DNA of 58,534 nt from Terriglobales bacterium (GTDB taxonomy: Bacteria > Acidobacteriota > Terriglobia > Terriglobales > Acidobacteriaceae): positions 1 to 58,534 of the forward strand of contig DATIBR010000089.1 of assembly GCA_035457425.1 (NCBI GenBank), given 5' to 3'. The notes below the pieces were generated by a model. That model was given only the letters and a program-made list of their open reading frames with translations. It was not told where the DNA came from and ran no database searches. Every line of letters starts with the position of its first letter. The stretch's first letter is position 1. This document shows positions 4,274 through 15,294 of the stretch, in pieces. The translations under genes were made by a program, and so were the position numbers.

Positions 4274-6442
4274 TTATCTTGCGCGCGCGAGCACCAGCGT
4301 GATGTCGTCGGGCTGCTCGGCCGAGCCGATCCAGTCCTGCACCGCCTGGATGACCTCTTCCGAGATGCGCGCCAGCGGCTCGCGCTGGTGGGTCTTCACG
4401 AGTTCCAGCAGGCGTTCGGTGCCGAACTCGCCGAACTCGTTCTCCGGCTCGATCACTCCGTCGGAGAACGCGACGAACAGGTCGCCGGGCCGCAGCTCGA
4501 TGTGCGCGTCTTCCCACTTCGGGTGGTCGAACAGTCCGACCATCAGGCCCGACGCGCCGTCGAGTTTTCGCACCGTGCCGTCCGCGCCGACGACGTAAGG
4601 CGGCAGGTGCGCGGCGTTCGAATAGACCAGCTTGCGCTCCGCCTCCTCGTAGATGCCGAGGAACAGCGTGGCGTACTTCTCGAGCGGCGTCGTCTCGTAG
4701 AGGTGCTTGTTGAGCAGGCCGAGCGCCGAGGCCGGCGATTGCGTGGCGCGCGCCAGCAGCGCCGCGCTCTCGCCCGAGGGCACCGGCACGGTCGCGGCGA
4801 GGGTGAGCGACGGCAGCGCCGCCGAGCCCAGCTTCTCGTAGGCGCGGACGGCGGAGTGCACGGTCGCCATCATCAGCGCGGCCGAGATGCCCTTGCCGGA
4901 GATGTCGCCCACCGCGATGCCGAGCTTCCCGGCGCCGAACGGGATGAAGTCGTAGTAATCGCCGCTCACGGTGCGCGCCGGCTTGCACACGCCCTGCACC
5001 TCGAGCGTCGGCAGGCCCTTGGGGTCGTGCGGGAAGAGCTGGTCCTGCACCTCCTGCGCGATGGCCAGCTCGTTCTGCAGCCGCTCTTTTTCCTTCTGCT
5101 CGAGGATCAGCCGCTGGATGTCCTCGGTCATCGCGTTGAACGAGCCTTGCAGCTCGGCGAGCTGGTCGTTGCCGCGCACCTCGATGCGGTGCGCGAAATC
5201 CGCGCGCTTGATGTGCTGGGTCGCTTCGTAGAGGTTGGCGATGCTGCGCGTCATGGTGCGCGTGAGGCCGGCCCCGATGCCGAACGCGATCAGCTCGATG
5301 ATCCCGAAGGCGATGGCCGCGGCGCTCAGCGCGGTGAGCACGATGGTCGCCGAGGTGCTCATGTTGGCGAACAGCTGCGGGTAGAGCACGGAGTAGCGCG
5401 TGCGCCCGCCGAACAGTCCGTTCGAGCGCTTGCCGCTCTGCCACTCCACCATCTCGTACGGCGTGCCGTAGAGGATCTCGTTGTCGAGCGTGCGCGTCGC
5501 GGGCGGCAGCGTGCCGGCCGTGACCGTGGGGCCGCGCTGGTTTCCCTTGCGGTCGGTGATCTGCGCCTTCGGCCGGTTCGCGCTGAGCGAGAGCTTCGGC
5601 CCTTTGCTCTCCGCGCCGCTCTTCTTCTGGTCGACGTCCCAGTTCTGGTCGTCGGTGGTGAAGTCGGGCGTCCATGCGTTGAACGTCCCGAGGGACCTCG
5701 CGAGATGCGCGGCGGCTTCGTCCTTCAGGTCCTTGCGCGAGAGGATGGCAAGGCGGCCGGCGGGAGTGGCGCGCGTCGTGATCGCCAGGAGGAAGAGCTT
5801 GTCGCCTTCGGCCGCGATGGTCTTCTCGGGATCCTTCACCCAGGCGGGAAGCTGGGCGGGCGCCCCTGGTTGCGCGGCCAGCAGCTTGCCGTCGAGCCAC
5901 ACCGACATCGCGACGCCGGCGGCCTCGCCTTTGCCGACCAGGTCGCGCGCGCGCTTGTCGGGCGCGCCGGCCCCGGCGGCCATCTGCTCGCTCACGAGCT
6001 GGTTGGCGGCGGCCATGGTGTCGAGCTCCTTGCGGATCTCCGACACCGCCACGAAGGTGGCGAACTGCCCCGCGAACAGGTAGCCCACGATGAGCGCCAT
6101 CAGCAGCAGCAGCACGATGGGGATCACGCCGATGAAGAAGTAGGTGACGAACAGCCGCCGCCGCACGCTCCACATCAGCCGCAGGCGGATCCACCGGAGG
6201 AGCAGCCCGAGCAGCAGCACGATGGTCACGAACCGGGTCGCGTTGTACCACCACTCCGCGAACGCCTGCGGGCCGGCGCCGGCGCCGAACGCGCGGAAGG
6301 CGTAGTAGACGACCGCGAACGCCACGGTGAGAGCGGCGCTGAAGGCCGCCAGCAGCGCCAGGCGCGTCTGCGGGATGTAGCGCCGCGAGACGCCGCGCGC
6401 GCGCAGCGTGCGCTGCCAGGACCGGTTGGAGTGTGCTGCCAT
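4274..6442 (-). CDS. Membrane HAMP-PP2C (SpoIIE/RsbU-like) serine phosphatase
   Basis: 722 residues. Hydrophobic helices near residues 27-47, 68-80 and 99-125 are followed by a roughly 200-residue extracytoplasmic region. Next come another membrane helix near 355-380, a HAMP linker, a coiled-coil (LEQKEKERLQNELAIAQEVQ) and a C-terminal PP2C phosphatase. The phosphatase has GDYYDF and GDISGKG, the metal-binding aspartate motifs of SpoIIE/RsbU enzymes. Such proteins dephosphorylate anti-sigma-factor antagonists to switch on stress sigma factors. No partner kinase or antagonist is adjacent. It is divergent from the gas vesicle locus with only 101 bp between start codons. A TATAAT 11 nt before the ATG implies a very short leader. 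Confidence 0.88.
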   Translation of the reverse strand: MAAHSNRSWQRTLRARGVSRRYIPQTRLALLAAFSAALTVAFAVVYYAFRAFGAGAGPQAFAEWWYNATRFVTIVLLLGLLLRWIRLRLMWSVRRRLFVTYFFIGVIPIVLLLLMALIVGYLFAGQFATFVAVSEIRKELDTMAAANQLVSEQMAAGAGAPDKRARDLVGKGEAAGVAMSVWLDGKLLAAQPGAPAQLPAWVKDPEKTIAAEGDKLFLLAITTRATPAGRLAILSRKDLKDEAAAHLARSLGTFNAWTPDFTTDDQNWDVDQKKSGAESKGPKLSLSANRPKAQITDRKGNQRGPTVTAGTLPPATRTLDNEILYGTPYEMVEWQSGKRSNGLFGGRTRYSVLYPQLFANMSTSATIVLTALSAAAIAFGIIELIAFGIGAGLTRTMTRSIANLYEATQHIKRADFAHRIEVRGNDQLAELQGSFNAMTEDIQRLILEQKEKERLQNELAIAQEVQDQLFPHDPKGLPTLEVQGVCKPARTVSGDYYDFIPFGAGKLGIAVGDISGKGISAALMMATVHSAVRAYEKLGSAALPSLTLAATVPVPSGESAALLARATQSPASALGLLNKHLYETTPLEKYATLFLGIYEEAERKLVYSNAAHLPPYVVGADGTVRKLDGASGLMVGLFDHPKWEDAHIELRPGDLFVAFSDGVIEPENEFGEFGTERLLELVKTHQREPLARISEEVIQAVQDWIGSAEQPDDITLVLARAR

Positions 6443-6543: not shown

Positions 6544-8472
6544 GTGGCCGCGCTCTCGTTCTTCGTCGGCAAGGGCGGCGTCGGCAAGACGACGCTCAGC
6601 GCCGCCTATGCCGCGCACGCCGCCGCGACGCGCCCCCGCGAGCGCGTGCTGCTGCTCTCCACCGACCCGGCGCACTCCGTGGCCGACGTCTTTCAGGTCC
6701 GGCTGGGCGATGCGCCGAAGCGCGTCCGGCTGGCGCGCGGCAACCTCTCGCTCTGGCAGGTCGACGCCGAGAAGCAGTTCCGCAAGTTCCTCGCCGTCAA
6801 TCGCGACGCCATCCTCACCCTGGTCGAGAACGGCACCATCTTCTCGCGCGAGGAGATCGAGCCGCTGCTCGACACCACGCTGCCCGGCATGGCCGAGATG
6901 GCCGCGCTGCTCGCCATCCACGACCTGCTCGCCTCGGGCGCGTACGACCGCATCGTCGTGGACACCGCGCCCATCGGCCACACGCTGCGCCTGTTCGAGA
7001 TGCCGGAGCACTTTGCCAGGTTCCTCGACTTCCTTGACGTGGCCGCCGGGCGCGACCAGGTGCTGGCGGCGCACTTCGGCGGGCGCGCGCGCCCGGTCTC
7101 GCAGCCCTTCATCGCGGAGTGGCGCCAGATGGTGAAGGACGTCCGCACGGCGCTGGCCGAGGACGGCACGGACGTCGTGCTGGTCACCACGCCGGAGACT
7201 TTTTCGCTCAACGAGTCGGTGCGGGTCGCGCGGCAGATGCGCGAGTCCGAAGCCGCGATCGCTCTGACGCGCGTCGTTCTGAACAAGGTCGTTGAGCGCT
7301 CCGCGAAGTGCGCGGAGTGCGGGCCGCGCGCGCAGTCGGCCAAACGCGCCCGCGTCTTCCTGCGGCGCAACTTCCGGCGCTTGCCGGTGCAGGCCGCTCC
7401 CGACCCGGGGCATCCCATCCTGGGCGCCGCGGCGCTCGCCGCCTTCGGCGCGCACGTGTTCGCGCGCAAGCCGCTGCGGCTTCGGCCGGCTTCGCCTGCC
7501 GCCTCGGCGAAGCTCAGTTTCCGCCCCGTCAAATGGCCGGAGCTGCGCGCGCCGCTCACGCTCACGCTCGGCAAGGGCGGCGTGGGCAAGACGACCATCT
7601 CCGCCGCGCTGGCCTTCCACGCGCGCGCCGCGCAGCCCAAGGTGGCATTGACCATCTGCTCCACCGATCCCGCGCCCTCGCTCGACGACGTCTTCCAGAA
7701 GCCGATCGACGACCGCGGCGCCTCCGTCCTGGGCGACGCCAGGTTCCGCGCGATGGAGTTCGCCTCGGTCGACGAGTTCCGCCGCTGGGCCGAGCGCATG
7801 AAGCGCCAGCTCGACCAGGCGCTCTCCACCAACGTCCAGGGCGTCCACGTGGACATGTCGCTCGACCGCGCCGTCTTTGCCGCGCTGCTCGACATCGTCC
7901 CGCCCGGCGTCGACGAGCTGTTCGCCACCTTTCGCATCCTCGACCTGCTCGACGCCAGGCGCGGCCGCGTGGTCATCGACATGGCGCCCACCGGGCACGC
8001 GCTCGACCTGCTGCGCATGCCCGACCGCATGCTGCTCTGGTCGCGCCTGCTGTTGAAAAGCCTCGCGCCGCACCGTACACTCCCACTCGCTCGCGAGATC
8101 GCGGTCGAGGTGGCGACCATCGCGCAGCGTGTGCGCGAGCTCGCGCAGATGTTGCGCGACGCGAAGCGCGCGGAGCTCTTTGTCGTCATGCTGGCCGAGC
8201 CCATGCCCGACCGCGAGACGCGACGCCTGCTGGCGTCGCTCGAGCATATGGGTATCCAGCCTGCGGCGCTCTTCGTGAACCGCGTCCTATTTCCCGAAGG
8301 CGCCGGCGGCTGCCGCCGCTGCCAGACGGCGCGCCGCTGGCAGCTCGCGACCCTGGCGCGGCTCCCCAGCCTCGACGCCGAGCTGCTGGTCGCGCGCGAC
8401 TTCGGCCACGAGATCGCCGGACGCAAGGCTCTCGAACGCTTCACCCGCGAACTATGGCGCATCGCTCGATGA
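6544..8472 (+). CDS. Tandem ArsA/Get3-like ATPase of the gas vesicle locus
   Basis: 642 residues in two homologous ATPase halves. Half 1 has the deviant P-loop GKGGVGKTT (residues 9-17), LLLSTDPAHSVADVF and VVDTAPIGHTLRLF. Half 2 has GKGGVGKTT at 343-351, STDPAPSLDDVF and IDMAPTGHALDLL. Each half also carries a CxxC pair (Cys256/259 and Cys590/593), reminiscent of the zinc site of Get3. Such ATPases either energise arsenite efflux or chaperone hydrophobic tail-anchored proteins. There are no ars genes here, and the stop codon overlaps the next gvp start (ATGA). A role in delivering or assembling the very hydrophobic GvpA subunits is therefore inferred. GTG is the start because TAGAAT lies 6 nt upstream. 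Confidence 0.85.
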   Translation: MAALSFFVGKGGVGKTTLSAAYAAHAAATRPRERVLLLSTDPAHSVADVFQVRLGDAPKRVRLARGNLSLWQVDAEKQFRKFLAVNRDAILTLVENGTIFSREEIEPLLDTTLPGMAEMAALLAIHDLLASGAYDRIVVDTAPIGHTLRLFEMPEHFARFLDFLDVAAGRDQVLAAHFGGRARPVSQPFIAEWRQMVKDVRTALAEDGTDVVLVTTPETFSLNESVRVARQMRESEAAIALTRVVLNKVVERSAKCAECGPRAQSAKRARVFLRRNFRRLPVQAAPDPGHPILGAAALAAFGAHVFARKPLRLRPASPAASAKLSFRPVKWPELRAPLTLTLGKGGVGKTTISAALAFHARAAQPKVALTICSTDPAPSLDDVFQKPIDDRGASVLGDARFRAMEFASVDEFRRWAERMKRQLDQALSTNVQGVHVDMSLDRAVFAALLDIVPPGVDELFATFRILDLLDARRGRVVIDMAPTGHALDLLRMPDRMLLWSRLLLKSLAPHRTLPLAREIAVEVATIAQRVRELAQMLRDAKRAELFVVMLAEPMPDRETRRLLASLEHMGIQPAALFVNRVLFPEGAGGCRRCQTARRWQLATLARLPSLDAELLVARDFGHEIAGRKALERFTRELWRIAR

Positions 8473-9263
8473 AGAAGAAGACCACAAAGCGGCCGGCGAA
8501 GAAGGCAGCGGCGAGCAGCAAGCGGACCTCGCCCGCGAACCAGGTCCTCTATCTTTACGGCGTCACGCGCGCCGCGGGCCCCGCGCCGCAAGCGGCCGGC
8601 GTCGATGGCAAGGCCGCGGTCGCATCCGTCCCGTGTTCCGGGCTTACCTGCTGGGTCAGCCGCGTCGACGCCAGGGAGTACGGCGCCGAACTCGAGCGCA
8701 ACATCGAGAACCTCGACTGGCTCGCCGAAGCCAGCGTGCGCCATCAGCGCGTCGTCGCCGAGCTTTCCCAGGACCGCACCGTGCTGCCCGCGCGCTTCGG
8801 CACCGTCTTCCTGAGCGAGAAGACGCTGGCCGCCGACGTGGCGAAGCGCAAGAAGGACATGGAGTCCGCGCTCCGCCGGCTGGCCGATGCCGACGAGTGG
8901 GGCGTGAAAGTGTTCCGCGTCGATCAGCCGGTGCACACCGCCATGGCGGCCGCGAGCGGCCGCGACTACCTGAGCCAGAAGGCCGCGATGCTCAAGCCCG
9001 CGGGCGCGCAACAGGTCGCGCCCGAGATCCGCGAGCTGGCCGACGCGCTCTCCAAGGTGGCCGCCGACGCGGTCCCGGCGGGCAAGGTCTCATCCGGACA
9101 GCGCGGCCTGGAGTGGCAGGCGTCGTTCCTCGTGCGCCGCGCCGACCGCAAGAAGTGGGACGAGGTGCTCGCCAGGTTTGCCCGCCGCTGGGGCTACGAG
9201 CGCCGCATCGAGACCAGCGGGCCCTGGCCGCCCTATTCTTTCGTGAGTCGCCATGCCCGCTGA
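8469..9263 (+). CDS. GvpF/L-family gas vesicle protein (copy 1)
   Basis: 264 residues. After a lysine-rich tail of about 25 residues (MKKKTTKRPAKKAAA) comes a typical GvpF/L body: the opening strand VLYLYGVTR, the central segment LPARFGTVF, and the C-terminal signature GPWPPYSF. GvpF/L proteins are accessory assembly factors that bind GvpA and are thought to prevent its premature aggregation. ATG 8469 overlaps the stop of the ATPase gene (ATGA), and its own stop overlaps the next start. The histone-like basic tail is not part of the usual family architecture. Its function is unknown. Confidence 0.88.
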   Translation: MKKKTTKRPAKKAAASSKRTSPANQVLYLYGVTRAAGPAPQAAGVDGKAAVASVPCSGLTCWVSRVDAREYGAELERNIENLDWLAEASVRHQRVVAELSQDRTVLPARFGTVFLSEKTLAADVAKRKKDMESALRRLADADEWGVKVFRVDQPVHTAMAAASGRDYLSQKAAMLKPAGAQQVAPEIRELADALSKVAADAVPAGKVSSGQRGLEWQASFLVRRADRKKWDEVLARFARRWGYERRIETSGPWPPYSFVSRHAR

Positions 9264-9489
9264 CCCCGAGCTGCTCATCTCCGCCAACGACCCCGCCGAC
9301 GAGCTCTCGCTGCTCGACCTGCTCGACCACGTCCTGAACTCCGGCGTCGTCATCCAGGGCAGCCTGGTCATCTCGCTCGCCGGCGTGGACCTGGTGTACG
9401 TCGGGCTGAACGTGGTGCTCACGTCGGTCGAGACCGCGATGCGGGTCGTCGAGCCGGGCGCCCGCCCGCTGCCCGACCGCAACCGCTAG
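9253..9489 (+). CDS. GvpA/J/M/S-family protein, GvpS/GvpM-like
   Basis: 78 residues with the small GvpA-like fold. The core reads LLDLLDHVLNSGVVIQGS followed by LVISLAGVDLVYVGLN. The segment ISLAGVDLVYVGL resembles GvpS and GvpM rather than structural GvpA, which has AWVRxSLVGIELL. These minor proteins are required in small amounts for vesicle nucleation or shape in other bacteria. The start overlaps the upstream gvpF/L-like gene by 11 nt. The exact subfamily letter is uncertain. Confidence 0.78.
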   Translation: MPADPELLISANDPADELSLLDLLDHVLNSGVVIQGSLVISLAGVDLVYVGLNVVLTSVETAMRVVEPGARPLPDRNR

Positions 9490-9498
9490 AATGACCTC
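9487..9498 (+). promoter_or_regulatory. Internal leaderless-type -10 element
   Basis: TAGAAT (9487-9492) overlaps the TAG stop of the GvpS/M-like gene and lies exactly 6 nt before the GTG start at 9499. This is the same geometry as in front of the locus. It suggests an additional internal promoter producing a leaderless transcript for the second GvpF/L and GvpK. Cotranscription from upstream is also possible. Confidence 0.45.
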
Positions 9499-10125
9499 GT
9501 GCTCCTGCTCTATGGCATGACGAAGTCGGGCACGCCCGCGCCGCCGTTCGAGGGCGTTGGCGGAGAACCGCTCCGTTCGCTGGACGAGCAAGGCATCACC
9601 GCGTGGCATTCCAATGCCGCGCCGACCCGCGGCGCCAAGGAAGACGTCCTGGCTTTCCATCGCGTCATCTCCGCGCTCTTCCAGGCAGCGACCGTGATCC
9701 CGTTCCGCATGCCGACCCTGCTGCCGGGCGAGCCGGAGCTGCGCGCCTGGCTCGCCGCGAATGCGGCGACCATCCTGCGCGAGCTCGAGCGGTTGCGCGG
9801 CGTCGTGCAGATGGAGTTGCACATTGCGGCGCCCGCGCCCGCCGCGGCCGGCTCGGGCCGCGCCTACCTGGAGTCGCGCCGCGACGCGCAACGCGCGCTC
9901 GCGGAGCGGGCGGCCGCGGCGCGCGAAGCGCTCGCCGATCTTGCCGCCGAGTGGCGGCAGCGCGAGACCCGCGACGGCATCCGCTGTTTCGCGCTCGTGC
10001 CCCGCGGGCGCGAGCGCGACTTCGTCTCGCACCTTGACGCTTCCGGCCGCCGCGACGATCTTCGCGTGACCGGCCCCTGGCCGCCGGCCGAGTTCCTCGA
10101 CCCCGCTCTCACCACTCCCGCATGA
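9499..10125 (+). CDS. GvpF/L-family gas vesicle protein (copy 2)
   Basis: 208 residues, shorter than copies 1 and 3 and without the basic N-terminal tail. The start LLLYGMT gives the opening strand, VIPFRMPTLL corresponds to the family's central segment, and the C-terminal signature GPWPPAEFL is present. The middle is a long alanine/arginine-rich helix (about residues 120-160). GTG 9499 is the only sensible start. The stop TGA overlaps the ATG of gvpK. It probably acts with the other two copies as a GvpA-binding assembly factor. Division of labour between the copies is unknown. Confidence 0.82.
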   Translation: MLLLYGMTKSGTPAPPFEGVGGEPLRSLDEQGITAWHSNAAPTRGAKEDVLAFHRVISALFQAATVIPFRMPTLLPGEPELRAWLAANAATILRELERLRGVVQMELHIAAPAPAAAGSGRAYLESRRDAQRALAERAAAAREALADLAAEWRQRETRDGIRCFALVPRGRERDFVSHLDASGRRDDLRVTGPWPPAEFLDPALTTPA

Positions 10126-10514
10126 GCCACCGCATCGACAAGCCGCGCCAGCTCTCACCCGACGAAGTCACCGCCGCCGTCCGCGACCTCAAGCGGCAGC
10201 TCGAGAACACCGTCCCCGGCACCGCCGAGCGCATCGAGTGCAACGCGGAGACGCTCGACCAGGGCCTCGCCAAGCTGGTCCTCGGACTCATCGAGCTCCT
10301 GCGCCGCGTGCTCGAGCGCCAGGCCATCCGCCGCATGGAAGGCGGCTCGCTTTCCGACCAGCAGGTCGAGGAGATGGGACAGGCCCTCATGAAGCTGGAG
10401 CAGAAGATCGGGGAGCTGTGCGACCAGTTCGGCATCCAGCCCGCCGACCTCAATCTGGGCATCGGCATCGGCAACCTGAACGAGCCGCCCGACCCATCGG
10501 CTCAAGATAAGTGA
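10122..10514 (+). CDS. gvpK: Gas vesicle protein GvpK
   Basis: 130 residues with the highly characteristic GvpK core: ETLDQGLAKLVLGLIELL, then RRVLERQAIRRMEGGSL and a helical segment LMKLEQKIGELCDQFGI. GvpK is a small accessory protein found in nearly all gas vesicle clusters and needed for vesicle formation. Its biochemical role is not settled. The start overlaps the upstream gene by 4 nt, and a 239-nt gap follows before gvpJ, so this is probably the last gene of the first transcription unit. Confidence 0.93.
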   Translation: MSHRIDKPRQLSPDEVTAAVRDLKRQLENTVPGTAERIECNAETLDQGLAKLVLGLIELLRRVLERQAIRRMEGGSLSDQQVEEMGQALMKLEQKIGELCDQFGIQPADLNLGIGIGNLNEPPDPSAQDK

Positions 10515-10753
10515 TAGAAAATACGAGAGTTGCTGCTGCTCCGAAGCGCGGGTCATTGTCCTTTCGGACGGCATGAAATTTTTTCTCAGGCGCTGCCAAC
10601 TTCCTGCATCCAAGAGAATTGGCGCTCGGTTTCGCAGTCGACCGGCGTCGGACTCCCCCAAAAGTTGAGTGCTGTTAGAATAGCGGACTCGTTGCGGCCT
10701 GAGAGACGTTCCAAAAGGGTCCAACAGCCGTTATTCCTCATCACGGAAGGCGC
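10515..10753 (+). promoter_or_regulatory. Intergenic gap with putative promoter for the gvpJ-gvpA unit
   Basis: The only substantial non-coding gap inside the gas vesicle locus. TAGAAT at 10676-10681 is a plausible -10, preceded by a weak -35 region. Unlike the leaderless cases it would give a leader of about 65 nt. GGAAGG (10745-10750) then provides a ribosome site for gvpJ. No coding potential or clear terminator hairpin was found. It likely separates an accessory-protein transcript from a gvpJ-gvpA-kinase transcript. Confidence 0.45.
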
Positions 10754-11065
10754 ATGGAGCAACGACTACCCACCGTTTCAGGCAACACGAATCTGGTCGA
10801 CATTCTGGATCGCGTCCTGGACAAGGGCTTGGTGGTCGCGGGCGACATTCGTGTGTCGCTGGCGAACGTCGAGCTGCTCACCATTCGCATCCGCTTGCTG
10901 GTCTGTTCGGTCGACAAGGCCGAGCAGATCGGCTTGAACTGGTGGAAGCACGATCCCAACCTTACGGTCGGAGCGCCGCGGCGGCGCCGGTTGCCCGCTC
11001 GCGGTCCGGCGGAAGGCGTTTTGGAACCCGCGCGCCGCAAGAAGGCGGCGAGGCCCGCAAGGTAA
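10754..11065 (+). CDS. gvpJ: Gas vesicle minor protein GvpJ
   Basis: 103 residues. The core [20 protein letters not shown], then VSLANVELLTIRIRLLVCSV and DKAEQIGLNWWK, matches GvpJ: the GD in place of GvpA's AW, and the terminal NWW, are typical. GvpJ is a GvpA paralogue used in trace amounts and needed for vesicle nucleation. After residue 70 the protein carries an unusual arginine/lysine-rich tail (RRRRLPARGP, then ARRKKAARPAR). SD GGAAGG is 3 nt before ATG. gvpA follows 24 nt later. Confidence 0.87.
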   Translation: MEQRLPTVSGNTNLVDILDRVLDKGLVVAGDIRVSLANVELLTIRIRLLVCSVDKAEQIGLNWWKHDPNLTVGAPRRRRLPARGPAEGVLEPARRKKAARPAR

Positions 11066-11089
11066 AAAGAGTTTCAGGAGGACCCTCCG

Positions 11090-11395
11090 ATGGCTGTTGA
11101 ACGCGTATCCGGCGGCTCAAGTCTGATCGACGTACTCGATCGGGTACTCGACAAAGGTATCGTGATCGATGCGTGGGTACGCATTTCGCTGGTCGGCATC
11201 GACCTGATCACGGTCGAAGCCCGCGTGGTGGTCGCTTCGATCGATACGTATCTCAAGTACGCCGATGCGGTCGGTCTCAGCGGTCTGGTCTCGCGTCCGC
11301 GCCTGGGCGAGGGCGAAGAAGTCGTCGAAGTGGTCGAGGAAGAGCCGGTGCGGCGTCCGCGACCTGCTCCCCGCCGGGCGGCTGCACGTCGCTAG
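11090..11395 (+). CDS. gvpA: Major gas vesicle structural protein GvpA
   Basis: 101 residues. The first 70 are canonical Gvp[38 protein letters not shown] and [15 protein letters not shown]. GvpA polymerises into the ribs of the gas-permeable vesicle wall. The best ribosome site in the cluster (AGGAGG, about 8 nt upstream) fits high expression. The SD sequence could pair with CCTCC just downstream, a possible translational control. GvpA is usually 70-75 residues. Here an extra 30-residue tail has an acidic block ([12 protein letters not shown]) and then a basic proline/arginine block ([14 protein letters not shown]). Confidence 0.95.
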
Positions 11396-11443
11396 CCCTG
11401 TACCGCAAGGAACGACGGCGATTGATGTGACTAGGGTGTCCGC

Positions 11444-13564
11444 ATGGCCACGCCTGAGATGCGTGTGAATACCGTTGCCCAACTTCCCGCGCAGCGCCGC
11501 ATGGCGGCGCTGCGCCGTCGCTCCGCGCTCCGCCTGCTCGACGTCGAGCGCTCCGAAGATATCTTCCCCGTCCTCCTGGAAGAGATCATGGCGCTCGGCT
11601 TCCGCCGCGCTGCCATCGCGACTGTCGATCCCGAGACCGGCGAGCTCGTTCCCGCCGAATCCGTCAACGCCGGCAAGCAGTTCCTCGCGCAGTTCCGCAC
11701 CTCCCTCTACGCCTCCGAGAACCCGCTCGTCGGCGTGCTGCAGGGCATGCAGCCTGCCGTGCTGCCCCAGCCCGGCAACAAGAACCACAATCTCTACTGC
11801 CACCCCTTCATCTATCGCAACCGCAACATGTGCTGGGAGGCGGAGCGCGAGCGCCGCGCCGACTGCCTGGCGCTCGTCAACTTCTCCAGCCCGCAGCCCC
11901 TGCAGCTCGACCGCCAGACCTGCGAGGTCTGTGACATGCGCTCCTACGCCGGCCTGGTCGCGGTGGAGCTCAACGGCGCCACCTCCGAGCGCGAGCTGAG
12001 CGAGCTGCGCGCCCTCATCGAGCTCGCCAACCGCTACCTCGCCCGCCTCTTCAAGGTCGAGCACTACTACAACCGCATGCGCGACATGGACACCACCATC
12101 GCGCAGATGCAGACCATGATGCAGAGCATGTCGGACCCCGTCATTCTGACCGACACGCATCATCGCGTCATCACCCAGAATCGCGCCGCCGAGCAGTTCT
12201 TCAAGCTGCCGGAAGAGACCACCGAAGGCCTGGTGCGCGCCGTCGAGCTCAACAACCTACTGTTCTCCGCCGCGCTCTCGTCGATGGCGATGGGCGGCGA
12301 AGACGCCTCCCGCGACCTCACCCTCGTCGATCCCATCGAGGGCGAGGAAGTGCTGTTCGAGGCCGTCACCGCGCCCACCTTCACGCGCGAGGGCATGCGC
12401 ACCGGCCTGGTCACCGTGATGCGCAACGTCACCGACCTCCGCCGCGCCGACGAAGAACTGCGCACCAACTTCGAGCGCCTGCTGGCGGCCGAAGAAGTCG
12501 TGCGCCAGGACCGCGACCGCCTCAACCTCATCATCGAGAACGTCGGCGACCCCATCATCGTCGCCGACTCCGCCGGCAAGGTCGTCTTGCTCGACCCGCT
12601 GGCGCAGGAGTTGTTCGCGCGCAGCAAGGAAGGCCGCGTCGATCCCCAGGTCGTCAAGAACCTCGCCAAGCTCGACGCCTACATCATGGGCTTCACCTTC
12701 TCGTTCTCCGACCGCGAAAACGCCCCGCTCAAGCTGTGGTCGCCGGGCGCGCGCGCCGAGCTCGAATACGACGCCCGCTCCGGCAAGATCTACGACGTCC
12801 GCGGCCAGGTGGCCTACACCGTCACCGTGCTGCGCGACCTCACGCCGCTGCGCAAGGTCGAGCAGCTCAAGGTCGAGCGCCGCATGCTGGAAGTGGAGAA
12901 GTTCGCCGCCACCGGCCGCCTCGCCGGCACCATCGCGCACGAAGTCAACAACCCGATGGAGGCCATCAAGAACGCCATCTACCTGCTCGCCGACGGCGTG
13001 AAGGAGGAGAAGAAGCCCGTCTACGACATCCTCAAGGGCGAGACCGAGCGCGTGGCCCGCATCGTCCGCCAGATGCTCGGGCTCTATCGCACCAGCGAGC
13101 AGGCCGGCTCCATCGACATCAACAGCGTCATCGAAGACACGCTGCTGCTGTTCACGCGCCAGCTCCAGCGCAACGGCATCGTCGCGCTTACCGACCTCGA
13201 CAAGCTGCCGCCCGCGGTCGGCTCCGCCGACCAGTTCCGCCAGGTGCTCTCCAACCTGGTCGTCAACGCCAAGGACAGCATGGCGGAAGGCGGCCGCCTC
13301 ATCATCCGCACCCGCCACGTGCCCGAGCCCGACGGCATCCACAGCTGGGTCCGCATCTCCATCGCCGACACCGGCGCCGGCATCGCGCACGACATCCTGC
13401 CCAACATCTTCGAGGCCTTCGTCAGCACCAAGGGCGAGAAGGGCACCGGCCTCGGCCTGTGGATCGTCAAAGGCATCATCGAGAACCACGGCGGCAAGAT
13501 CAAGGTCCGCAGCAAGGTCGGCAAGGGAACGCTCTTCCAGATCTCCCTGCCGGTGGTGCGCTAG
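11444..13564 (+). CDS. Soluble GAF-PAS-PAS sensor histidine kinase in the gas vesicle locus
   Basis: 706 residues, no membrane segment. Order: GAF-like domain (about 30-215), PAS (about 225-330), a second PAS (about 355-475), HisKA with phospho-acceptor His499 in IAHEVNNPMEA, and HATPase with N (VVNAKDS), G1 (ADTGAGI) and G2 (GTGLGLWI) boxes. All five cysteines of the protein (119, 130, 141, 160, 163) fall in the GAF domain, the last two as CEVC. This suggests a metal, Fe-S or redox site, so oxygen or redox may be sensed. It sits 48 nt after gvpA and 2 nt before its response regulator. Regulation of buoyancy by oxygen state is inferred. Confidence 0.9.
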   Translation: MATPEMRVNTVAQLPAQRRMAALRRRSALRLLDVERSEDIFPVLLEEIMALGFRRAAIATVDPETGELVPAESVNAGKQFLAQFRTSLYASENPLVGVLQGMQPAVLPQPGNKNHNLYCHPFIYRNRNMCWEAERERRADCLALVNFSSPQPLQLDRQTCEVCDMRSYAGLVAVELNGATSERELSELRALIELANRYLARLFKVEHYYNRMRDMDTTIAQMQTMMQSMSDPVILTDTHHRVITQNRAAEQFFKLPEETTEGLVRAVELNNLLFSAALSSMAMGGEDASRDLTLVDPIEGEEVLFEAVTAPTFTREGMRTGLVTVMRNVTDLRRADEELRTNFERLLAAEEVVRQDRDRLNLIIENVGDPIIVADSAGKVVLLDPLAQELFARSKEGRVDPQVVKNLAKLDAYIMGFTFSFSDRENAPLKLWSPGARAELEYDARSGKIYDVRGQVAYTVTVLRDLTPLRKVEQLKVERRMLEVEKFAATGRLAGTIAHEVNNPMEAIKNAIYLLADGVKEEKKPVYDILKGETERVARIVRQMLGLYRTSEQAGSIDINSVIEDTLLLFTRQLQRNGIVALTDLDKLPPAVGSADQFRQVLSNLVVNAKDSMAEGGRLIIRTRHVPEPDGIHSWVRISIADTGAGIAHDILPNIFEAFVSTKGEKGTGLGLWIVKGIIENHGGKIKVRSKVGKGTLFQISLPVVR

Positions 13565-13566
13565 CC

Positions 13567-13965
13567 ATGAACGCGCAGAACAGCCACGTGCTGGTGGTCG
13601 ACGACGAGCCCTCCGTCCTGCTCACCTACCGCATGATCCTCGAGCAGCAGGGATACAAGGTCACGGCTTCCATCTCGTGCAAAGACGCCATCGCCGCACT
13701 CGAACAGGATCCGATGGACCTGCTCATCTGCGACCTCTCGCTCGAGCAGAAGCACACCGGCTTCGAGGTCATCGAGCATGGCCGCAGCCGCGATGCCACC
13801 GTGCCCGCCATCCTGGTCACCGGTTATGCCAGCAAGGAAGTCATGGACAAGGCCGAGCAAGCCGGCGTCGCGGTGCTGTTCAAGCCCATCGACATCAATG
13901 AGTTTCTCTCTACCATCTCGCAGAAGGTGAGGTCGAGGAATGAGTCCCGCCACCAGAAAGCGTAG
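13567..13965 (+). CDS. Single-domain (CheY-like) response regulator
   Basis: 132 residues comprising only a receiver domain: acidic pair DD (12-13), phospho-acceptor Asp56 (ICDLSL), the conserved Thr in LVTGYA and the Lys in LFKPID. No DNA-binding or enzymatic output domain follows. It is probably phosphorylated by the kinase encoded 2 nt upstream and should act by protein contact. Its 3' end overlaps the next gvp gene by 26 nt, which ties its synthesis to that of a GvpF/L protein. Target unknown. Confidence 0.9.
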   Translation: MNAQNSHVLVVDDEPSVLLTYRMILEQQGYKVTASISCKDAIAALEQDPMDLLICDLSLEQKHTGFEVIEHGRSRDATVPAILVTGYASKEVMDKAEQAGVAVLFKPIDINEFLSTISQKVRSRNESRHQKA

Positions 13966-14887
13966 TCCCAACAAGAAAGCCGCGCCGGAACCGAAAGAGA
14001 AGCCGGCGGTAGCCGTGAAGGTCCGCAGGACGGTCGACGCCGAGCGCGAGGTCCACGCGCTCGAGCCCTCGCAGCTCACGCGCGCCGAGCGCCCGCAGCT
14101 CGTCCCCGTCGCCGCTCCCGAGGCCGGTGAGGGCCGCTACGTCTACGGCGTCATCCAGGCCAAGGACTCCATGAACTTCGGCAAGATCGGTATGGGCGGC
14201 ACCGGCGAGATGGTCTACACCGTCCACCACGGCGACATCGCCGCCATCGTCAGCAAGACGCCGGTCTTCATCTTCGACCCCACGCGCGAGAACGCGCTCG
14301 CCCACGAGCACGTCATCGAGACCGTCATGAAGGCCCAGACCATCATCCCGATGTCGTTCGGCACCGTCTTCCGCACCGACGACGACATCCGCGAGGTACT
14401 CAAGTCCATCTACGCTTCGCTCAAGGACGTCCTCAAGCAGATGGCCAACAAACTCGAGTTCGGCTTGAAGGTCACCTGGGACCGCGACCAGATCATCGAG
14501 GAGCTCAAGCGCGGCCACGAAGACATCCACCGCTTCCACCAGGAGATCACGCGCAAGCACCTGCAATCCACCTACTTCGCCCGCATGCAGCTGGGCCGCA
14601 TGATCGACAAGGCCCTGGTCGAGCGGGCCGCCGAGTACGTGCGCGAGATCTACGAGGCGCTGCGGCCGGTGTGCGTCGCTTCCCGCGACAACAAGCCCAT
14701 CGGCGACAAGATGATCATGAACGCCGCCTTCCTCATCCATCGCGACAAGGAATCCGATTTCGATGAGGCCGTCAACAAGATCGCGCAGCGCTTCGGCGAC
14801 CGCCTGAACTTCAAGTACACCGGCCCCTGGCCGCCCTACAACTTCGTCAACATCCGCCTGAAACTGGAGCGCGGCACCGCCACGTAA
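13940..14887 (+). CDS. GvpF/L-family gas vesicle protein (copy 3)
   Basis: 315 residues, the longest of the three copies. A basic, proline-rich extension of about 65 residues (TRKRSPNKKAAPEPKEKP) precedes the family body, which starts at RYVYGVIQA, has IIPMSFGTVF in the middle and ends with GPWPPYNFVNI. The ATG at 13940 follows a GAGG-type ribosome site inside the response regulator gene, so the two are translationally coupled. The family acts in vesicle assembly by binding GvpA. The basic extension recalls copy 1. Confidence 0.88.
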   Translation: MSPATRKRSPNKKAAPEPKEKPAVAVKVRRTVDAEREVHALEPSQLTRAERPQLVPVAAPEAGEGRYVYGVIQAKDSMNFGKIGMGGTGEMVYTVHHGDIAAIVSKTPVFIFDPTRENALAHEHVIETVMKAQTIIPMSFGTVFRTDDDIREVLKSIYASLKDVLKQMANKLEFGLKVTWDRDQIIEELKRGHEDIHRFHQEITRKHLQSTYFARMQLGRMIDKALVERAAEYVREIYEALRPVCVASRDNKPIGDKMIMNAAFLIHRDKESDFDEAVNKIAQRFGDRLNFKYTGPWPPYNFVNIRLKLERGTAT

Positions 14888-14893
14888 GAGAAG

Positions 14894-14953
14894 CGTTCCC
14901 GGTTTCCCGAGTGGCGACTGGCAACGCGGGAACGGGAAACGGGAAACGGGAAA
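14894..14953. repeat. Heptamer repeat array with inverted copy upstream of gvpG
   Basis: Three perfect copies of CGGGAAA (14933-14953), preceded by a partial copy, end 2 nt before the gvpG ATG. An inverted copy of the motif (GTTCCCGGTTTCCCG) lies about 30 nt upstream, so transcripts can form a hairpin. The GGGAAA units may double as the ribosome site of gvpG. It belongs to the degenerate 7-bp tandem repeats seen at many gene edges in this window. Confidence 0.6.
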
Positions 14954-14955
14954 CT

Positions 14956-15294
14956 ATGTTCCTGATCGACGACCTGCTGATGATGCCCATCGACGGCATC
15001 AAGTTCGTCTTCCGCACCATCCAGAAGACCGCGGAAGAGCAGTACCTCGACGACGCCCCGCTCAAGGAGGCGCTGCTCGAACTGCAGGTCGAGTTCGATA
15101 ACGGCGACATCACTGAAGAGGAATACAGCGAGCAGCAGGCCGAGATCCTGCGCGCCCTGCGTGAGGTCCAGAACCGCCGCATGGAGATGGCCGGCGCCCC
15201 GCCCGAAGGCGAGCGCGGCCCGCTCACCGGCAAGGTCGCCGAAGGCTCCGGTGTCGACGTCCACCTCGACTACGGCCCATCAGAAAAGAAGTAG
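14956..15294 (+). CDS. gvpG: Gas vesicle protein GvpG
   Basis: 112 residues. The opening MFLIDDLLMMPIDGIKFVF is the hallmark of GvpG and fixes the start at ATG 14956. An upstream in-frame start would only add repeat-encoded residues. An acidic helical region with ITEEEYSEQQAEILRAL follows, as in the family. GvpG is a small assembly protein that interacts with GvpF and GvpL elsewhere. It is the last gene of the locus. A hairpin and repeat region follow. Confidence 0.9.
   Translation: MFLIDDLLMMPIDGIKFVFRTIQKTAEEQYLDDAPLKEALLELQVEFDNGDITEEEYSEQQAEILRALREVQNRRMEMAGAPPEGERGPLTGKVAEGSGVDVHLDYGPSEKK

Follow-up and report, generated by a model that had tools for sequence, protein, structure and literature searches.

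The window considered here, a stretch of 58,534 nucleotides from a Terriglobales bacterium (contig DATIBR010000089.1; all positions are those of the whole stretch), carries a gas vesicle (gvp) locus of eleven genes, all on the plus strand and spanning 6544-15294, that belongs to a class of gvp loci without GvpN. The class is real, widespread and partly known already, and it is set apart by the missing GvpN and by a histidine kinase after gvpA, not by its ArsA-type ATPase. Judged from the genes, there is about an even chance that the row functions in gas vesicle biogenesis, as a GvpN-free variety that occurs in four phyla, with an ArsA clamp, a redox kinase and small vesicles as its product. 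The row is composed as follows.

6544..8472, plus strand: tandem ArsA/Get3-type ATPase, 642 amino acids (PF02374, ArsA_ATPase, 292 bits, in two stretches)
8469..9263, plus strand: GvpF/L 1, here FL1 (PF06386, GvpL_GvpF, 146 bits)
9253..9489, plus strand: GvpJ-like protein of the GvpA family, 78 amino acids (PF00741, Gas_vesicle, 56 bits)
9499..10125, plus strand: GvpF/L 2, FL2 (PF06386, 101 bits)
10122..10514, plus strand: GvpK (PF05121, 106 bits)
10515..10753, plus strand: intergenic gap of 239 bases in the sequence, presumed to hold the promoter of the second group of genes
10754..11065, plus strand: GvpM/S-like protein of the GvpA family, 103 amino acids (PF00741, 62.5 bits)
11090..11395, plus strand: GvpA, the main shell protein, 101 amino acids (NF006874, 112.5 bits, cut-off 100)
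11444..13564, plus strand: histidine kinase with a GAF-like domain bearing four cysteines, PAS, HisKA and HATPase_c (Pfam; GAF by AlphaFold, Foldseek and VIA-align)
13561..13965, plus strand: receiver-only response regulator (PF00072, Response_reg, 70 bits)
13940..14887, plus strand: GvpF/L 3, FL3, by which the GvpN-free class is recognised (PF06386, 263 bits)
14911..15294, plus strand: GvpG (PF05120, 59 bits)

Order and strand agree with a preliminary description of this DNA, which listed ArsA, GvpA, GvpJ, GvpK, GvpG, an M/S-like protein, three GvpF/L copies, the kinase and the response regulator. Its assignments also hold in profile searches: all ten proteins scanned against Pfam have their best family above its cut-off, and the eleventh, GvpA, was identified by passing its NCBIfam cut-off instead. 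The NCBIfam cut-offs are unmet by GvpJ, GvpM, GvpG and the GvpF/L proteins (two of three GvpF/L scanned) and GvpK has no NCBIfam match, so the names of these proteins rest on Pfam; the letter J was assigned from position and likeness rather than from a cut-off, and M is a label. Judged by alignment, GvpA retains the shell domain of solved gas vesicles, its first 67 residues matching 8gbs (94 bits) and 63 residues matching 7r1c (81 bits). PF00741 has three matches in the assembly, namely the three GvpA-family genes of this locus.

Is GvpN truly missing? Its absence, asserted in the preliminary description, is borne out for the assembly, which holds none at the cut-off, and for the class at large. 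In the window's assembly (192 contigs, 96.46% complete) the best match to the GvpN profile reaches 28.5 bits, where the cut-off is 266.8; the same profile also matches in 12 of 14 control genomes, always below the cut-off. Among 396 genomes sampled from the phylum, 23 have GvpK, the window's included; GvpN stands above the cut-off in nine of these (329-351 bits) and was not found above it in the other 14, the window's among them. A sample of 398 genomes of the family gave GvpK matches in 49, of which 48 were above the cut-off. Five of 46 further family genomes with a GvpK match have GvpN; it was not found above the cut-off in the remaining 41, which include one (G558) with GvpK itself below the cut-off. 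Two genomes made up of one contig each, G420 (5,650,368 bases, one of these 41) and G325 (one of the 14 from the phylum sample), have no GvpN at E 1e-20, and their lack is therefore no assembly gap.

Home-made profiles find GvpN in none of 80 loci of the class (best score 22 bits), against 503-572 bits for eleven true GvpN proteins; since many of these loci end at contig ends, this concerns the locus sequence available. Ten frames from loci L054-L064 went into the GvpN profile, so that the scores of L031, L032, L038, L043, L049 and L050 are not independent of it, while those of L052 and L190-L193 are. At the level of genomes, no GvpN was found at E 1e-20 in any of the 49 behind 50 of the 80 loci (L097-L146), in a search within which no control matched; the same query does match in the phylum and family searches. 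Eight of the other 30 loci lie in genomes covered by the family search.

The class itself was delimited through FL3: the window's copy shares 52-59% identity with its counterparts in nine GvpN-free loci and at most 40% with those in GvpN-bearing ones. Scanning a genome collection with an FL3 alignment yielded 294 relatives; the class counts rest on the best 80 of them, which come from Acidobacteriota, Gemmatimonadota, Chloroflexota and Myxococcota. In a GvpF/L 3 tree of 102 rows, one branch separates 89 GvpN-free from 13 GvpN-bearing rows with a support of 90 (Shimodaira-Hasegawa-like approximate likelihood ratio test, SH-aLRT), several long branches lying among the GvpN-bearing rows. Choosing the 80 loci for likeness to FL3 partly builds in their grouping together in the tree, but not their lack of GvpN. 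Thirteen loci among the 80, on contigs that equal length marks as shared with the phylum or family samples (L067, L070, L081, L083-L086, L093, L098, L106, L113, L128 and L136), were excluded from this tree and retained in the kinase, receiver and ArsA rows discussed below. The idea of a distinct acidobacterial lineage thus stands as to distinctness, given the tree, and fails as to the acidobacteria, the class extending over four phyla. Both types of locus meet in genus g5, where G073 and G121 have GvpN and G509 has the window's order without it. Such coexistence within one family, and even within one genus, suggests that entire loci have been exchanged, or that there has been loss.

Two side observations concern the edges of the class. 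Six loci on one branch (L098, L099, L106, L107, L113 and L132; record titles include gp7 and Thermoanaerobaculia) have neither GvpN nor a kinase after GvpA and are its barest form. A contig-edge locus with ArsA and an unusual GvpF/L (L048, in G170, a genome without GvpN) fits neither type cleanly, its FL3 being 33% identical to the window's and lying outside both groups.

Gene order across the 80 loci was followed through three joins, GvpG to ArsA (or to FL1), GvpK to GvpM, and kinase or receiver (HK, RR) to FL3; joins contradicting a ring could therefore not be counted. The window's order, ArsA...K-M-A-HK-(RR)-FL3-G (single letters standing for Gvp proteins), is that of 20 loci with the second and third joins; it recurs in all eleven genes in the one-contig genome G420. 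The first two joins occur together in 25 loci, giving FL3-G-(ArsA)...K-M-A, mostly with the kinase next, and the first and last in four, giving M-A-HK-RR-FL3-G-ArsA...K. A single join was found in 22 loci and none in nine, most of which are cut short. The three two-join orders are rotations of one gene ring. A synteny search, as the preliminary description had proposed, recovers the window's order elsewhere; the class as a whole spans rotated and other orders.

The position after gvpA distinguishes the two types. Behind a strong GvpA (>100 bits, 58 loci), a kinase lies within 3 kb in 51 loci and a contig end in one. In the nine GvpN-bearing loci with a strong GvpA, GvpN comes immediately next in six (L031, L032, L038, L050, L192 and L193) and lies further away in L043, L190 and L191. 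In the window's own family, loci of the GvpN type have the order FL1-FL2-A-N-FL3-G-ArsA-J-K-M, so that a kinase pair in one type occupies the place of GvpN in the other. Acidobacterial loci of the GvpN type (such as those of G073, G121, G502, G559 and G614), from the same family, resemble the window's in having GvpA-family proteins, GvpF/L, GvpG, ArsA, J, K and M and share with it the run FL3-G-ArsA-J-K-M; they differ by GvpN after gvpA, with no kinase there, and FL3 of two of them (L031 and L032) is about 30% identical to the window's. The kinase and the Get3-like ATPase had both been put forward as hallmarks of a separate lineage; the kinase after gvpA is one, but ArsA is found in GvpN-bearing loci as well. 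One family genome (G614) has two gvp loci on separate contigs, L190 and L191, both of the GvpN type with ArsA. In another (G669, without GvpN), locus L189 comprises an ArsA fragment and J, K and M scoring like the GvpN type; the stretch read contains no GvpA, and L189 is perhaps a decayed locus.

Both halves of the window's ATPase have an intact P-loop, the deviant Walker A motif GKGGVGKTT, and one CxxC pair. Across 64 rows from outside GvpN-bearing loci, duplicates retained, the P-loop residues are conserved at 0.91-1.0 and the CxxC cysteines at 0.73-0.88. In Get3, the CxxC pair has a role in zinc binding. The protein passes the general ArsA/Get3 family (TIGR00345, 295.6 bits, cut-off 135) and misses the cut-off of the arsenical pump ATPase ArsA (TIGR04291, 157 bits against 650). 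The pump binds arsenite through a cysteine triad, which the window's ATPase cannot have, since four of its five cysteines form the CxxC pairs; the fifth is conserved in 45% of the rows. An AlphaFold model (predicted local distance difference test, pLDDT, 91.2; predicted template modelling score, pTM, 0.92) has, across its full length, the fold of the closed L. ferriphilum ArsA (9nbw; Z 32.9, root-mean-square deviation 3.2, 540 residues), and each half has that of Get3 (Z about 24-25); the cysteines are what differ.

The kinase has its phospho-accepting histidine in all 75 rows above 550 bits, which leave out the truncated kinase of L033/L128, and the receiver has its phospho-accepting aspartate in 42 of 44 rows and its lysine in all 43 with a letter at that position. 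Towards the N-terminus lie four cysteines, C130, C141, C160 and C163, spaced C-x10-C-x18-C-x2-C and 98-100% conserved in the 42 kinase rows (34 distinct loci) that score above 950 bits and make up the window's branch. This region has no sequence relative in the PDB at E up to 1; it is predicted to adopt a GAF-like fold (AlphaFold, pLDDT 87.1), and the solved structures that match it best are GAF domains, 3eea by Foldseek (E 1.6e-5) and 3trc by VIA-align (Z 13.4, root-mean-square deviation 3.7, 151 residues). One report, in the part available, describes a redox-active [3Fe-4S] cluster in a kinase that has a GAF domain (PMC6949291). Given the four cysteines, the fold and that precedent, a putative metal or Fe-S redox sensor is a fair guess for the GAF domain, and no more. 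The kinase reported there, chloroplast sensor kinase/Hik2, is likewise a GAF kinase, with a cysteine ligand of its redox-responsive cluster; the window's has another cysteine pattern, and any cluster in it is putative. In L033 (790-2085, on a contig shared with L128), a kinase frame beside GvpA is without its middle, including the phospho-His region, through an internal deletion or an assembly collapse.

Part of this picture has been published. According to the sections available of Castillo and Saier 2010 (PMC2963123), ArsA occurs in gvp clusters of four phyla, was proposed to energise a step of biogenesis alongside GvpN, and has homologues outside their cluster 1 without the arsenite cysteines. 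The acidobacterial cluster given there, that of Candidatus Koribacter (Korobacter) versatilis Ellin345, comprises ArsA, a pair of L/F genes and single copies of J, K and M, as does part of the window's locus; it is the single acidobacterium treated, with no kinase or receiver and no GvpN-free class named in those sections. Neither the kinase nor the class was found described in the open-licence PMC literature searched; a description elsewhere is possible. A 2024 review states in the text available that GvpN is present in all clusters (PMC10903477), and one of 2022, likewise seen in part, counts gvpN among the genes conserved in all (PMC9501494). One experimental survey tested 15 gvp clusters from 11 species (PMC10344784, in part). 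The locus of Serratia ATCC 39006, as far as the available account goes, is similar in having three GvpA-type proteins, three GvpF, GvpG, GvpK and regulators within the locus, and differs in having gvpN, gvpC and gvpV and other regulators (PMC4982088).

Does a gas vesicle require GvpN? The portions available of two sources report that Haloferax without GvpN still makes tiny vesicles (PMC9501494) and that gvpN mutants of Serratia make bicones (PMC4982088). Because deletion of GvpN elsewhere leaves tiny vesicles, GvpN is not defining for a vesicle. In a working GvpN-free locus, the GvpF/L proteins would keep the three GvpA-family proteins (GvpA, J and M) in solution, a nucleus would be built from J, M, K and G, and GvpA would polymerise into the ribbed shell. 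Upstream of growth, the ArsA/Get3 protein may act as an ATP-driven clamp that holds hydrophobic GvpA-type subunits and passes them on, much as Get3 holds tail anchors; it would not substitute for GvpN, given that loci with GvpN carry it too. A metal or Fe-S site in the GAF domain would let the kinase sense a signal of redox or oxygen type, and the kinase would in turn control phosphorylation of the receiver, which, having no DNA-binding domain, would act on other proteins. The vesicles would most likely stay small, as bicones or short spindles, and not extend into long cylinders.

A different view is that the tandem ArsA/Get3, perhaps gated by the kinase, took over the cone-to-cylinder step from GvpN and that full cylindrical vesicles result. 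The kinase standing after gvpA where GvpN is otherwise next, the intact ATP sites of both halves and the frequency of ArsA in the slot after GvpG (ArsA or FL1 follows GvpG in 42 of the 80 loci, ArsA in 37) would agree with it. It is nevertheless unlikely: a histidine kinase is no remodelling ATPase, and ArsA both accompanies GvpN in the same family and is missing from GvpN-free loci. ArsA lies beside GvpN in six family loci (L031, L032 and L190-L193), which rules out a plain replacement of GvpN by ArsA as the principal reading. In the remaining five of the 42 loci, FL1 directly follows GvpG with no ArsA in its slot. When 11 genomes were searched, nine with an ArsA-less locus and two (those of L114 and L117) with ArsA at the locus, no ArsA-family match at E 1e-15 was found in five, G755, G773, G777, G783 and G784, which weakens the replacement further; G755, G773 and G784 are the genomes of three of the five GvpG-FL1 loci, and L124 and L130 correspond to G777 and G783. 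Two more genomes, G293 and G317 (L042 and L044), also lack a match at that threshold. ArsA is thus common but dispensable for some members, and the role of a subunit-holding clamp would fit it better than that of GvpN's heir. A bolder proposal is distinctly unlikely: that a large branch, spread over four or more phyla, dispenses with GvpN and powers vesicle assembly in a second, independent way, with a redox kinase in the slot after gvpA and a Get3-like ATPase supplying the energy for growth.

Alternatively, the genes may be cryptic or make a gas vesicle-like shell or aggregate of other use, without flotation, which is unlikely. The words palsa, Pasture and HoplandSoil in some record titles suggest a soil or permafrost origin, not open water, and the cluster of S. 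coelicolor, which also lacks gvpN and whose GvpA is said to be significantly unlike others, is not known to give vesicles, as far as the available account goes (PMC4982088). Against this stand the shell domain of GvpA, the fact that nucleation and chaperone genes stay together in loci across four phyla, and selection acting on all eleven genes in the single pair compared. In that pair, the window and its same-genus relative L177, the ratio of non-synonymous to synonymous change (pN/pS) runs from 0.14 (GvpA) to 0.48 (GvpJ and FL2) over all eleven genes; synonymous change exceeds other change in each, and so none looks decayed. That GvpN was simply missed, in an assembly gap or through divergence beyond the reach of the profile, is highly improbable, even with the window's assembly in 192 contigs and short of complete: the same search scores real GvpN at 329-351 bits in the phylum sample, and nothing appears at E 1e-20 in the one-contig genomes or, by the control-less search, in the 49 further ones. 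This explanation is nearly refuted already.

Several points weigh against a working GvpN-free locus with the proposed parts, the S. coelicolor cluster and the five loci without ArsA after GvpG among them. No vesicle has been seen, and what ArsA binds as a client is, like the metal site, a guess. GvpN absence in incomplete assemblies can reflect gaps, and a very diverged AAA+ protein encoded elsewhere could do the work of GvpN. Neither kinase nor GvpN lies within 3 kb of the strong GvpA in six of the 58 loci, and the other 33 kinase rows, not of the window's branch, are mostly gapped in the cysteine region, the cysteines being mostly absent. The receiver gene is absent in 13 of the 42 kinase rows of that branch (nine of 34 distinct loci), where FL3 follows the kinase directly. 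Since each is missing from some loci, none of kinase, receiver and ArsA is indispensable for the class. Three Gemmatimonadota loci (L104, L130 and L141) depart from the ring, with FL3-A-HK or FL1-FL3-HK. The receiver-less loci are L082, L084-L086, L088, L089, L091, L093 and L103, with family copies; several have another receiver gene nearby on the opposite strand.

A natural GvpN-free class in four phyla would make the role of GvpN in vesicle growth testable, and it raises the question of whether its members make bicones only or cylinders driven by another ATPase. The kinase offers a handle on the signal that prompts these bacteria to build gas vesicles. If vesicles do form, GvpN-free clusters might, speculatively, serve as compact acoustic reporters. 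The link between ArsA and gvp genes has been known since 2010 (PMC2963123, in the sections available); the GvpN-free class and its kinase are what the literature searched did not describe.

Some features of the locus and its surroundings remain to be mentioned. The gap at 10515-10753 divides the row into ArsA-FL1-J-FL2-K and M-A-HK-RR-FL3-G; an alignment of 17 upstream regions gave no conserved block or promoter motif in the gap before gvpM. Neither GvpC (PF01304) nor GvpO has a match in seven genomes, in searches in which no control matched either. When 3,973 unassigned frames were clustered in search of additional conserved locus genes, the window was represented in none of the 25 largest clusters. 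A minus-strand gene (4277-6442), divergently oriented to that of ArsA and about 100 bases away from it, encodes a HAMP domain and a SpoIIE-type phosphatase; its best match in L177 is only 56% identical, with a pN/pS of 0.57.

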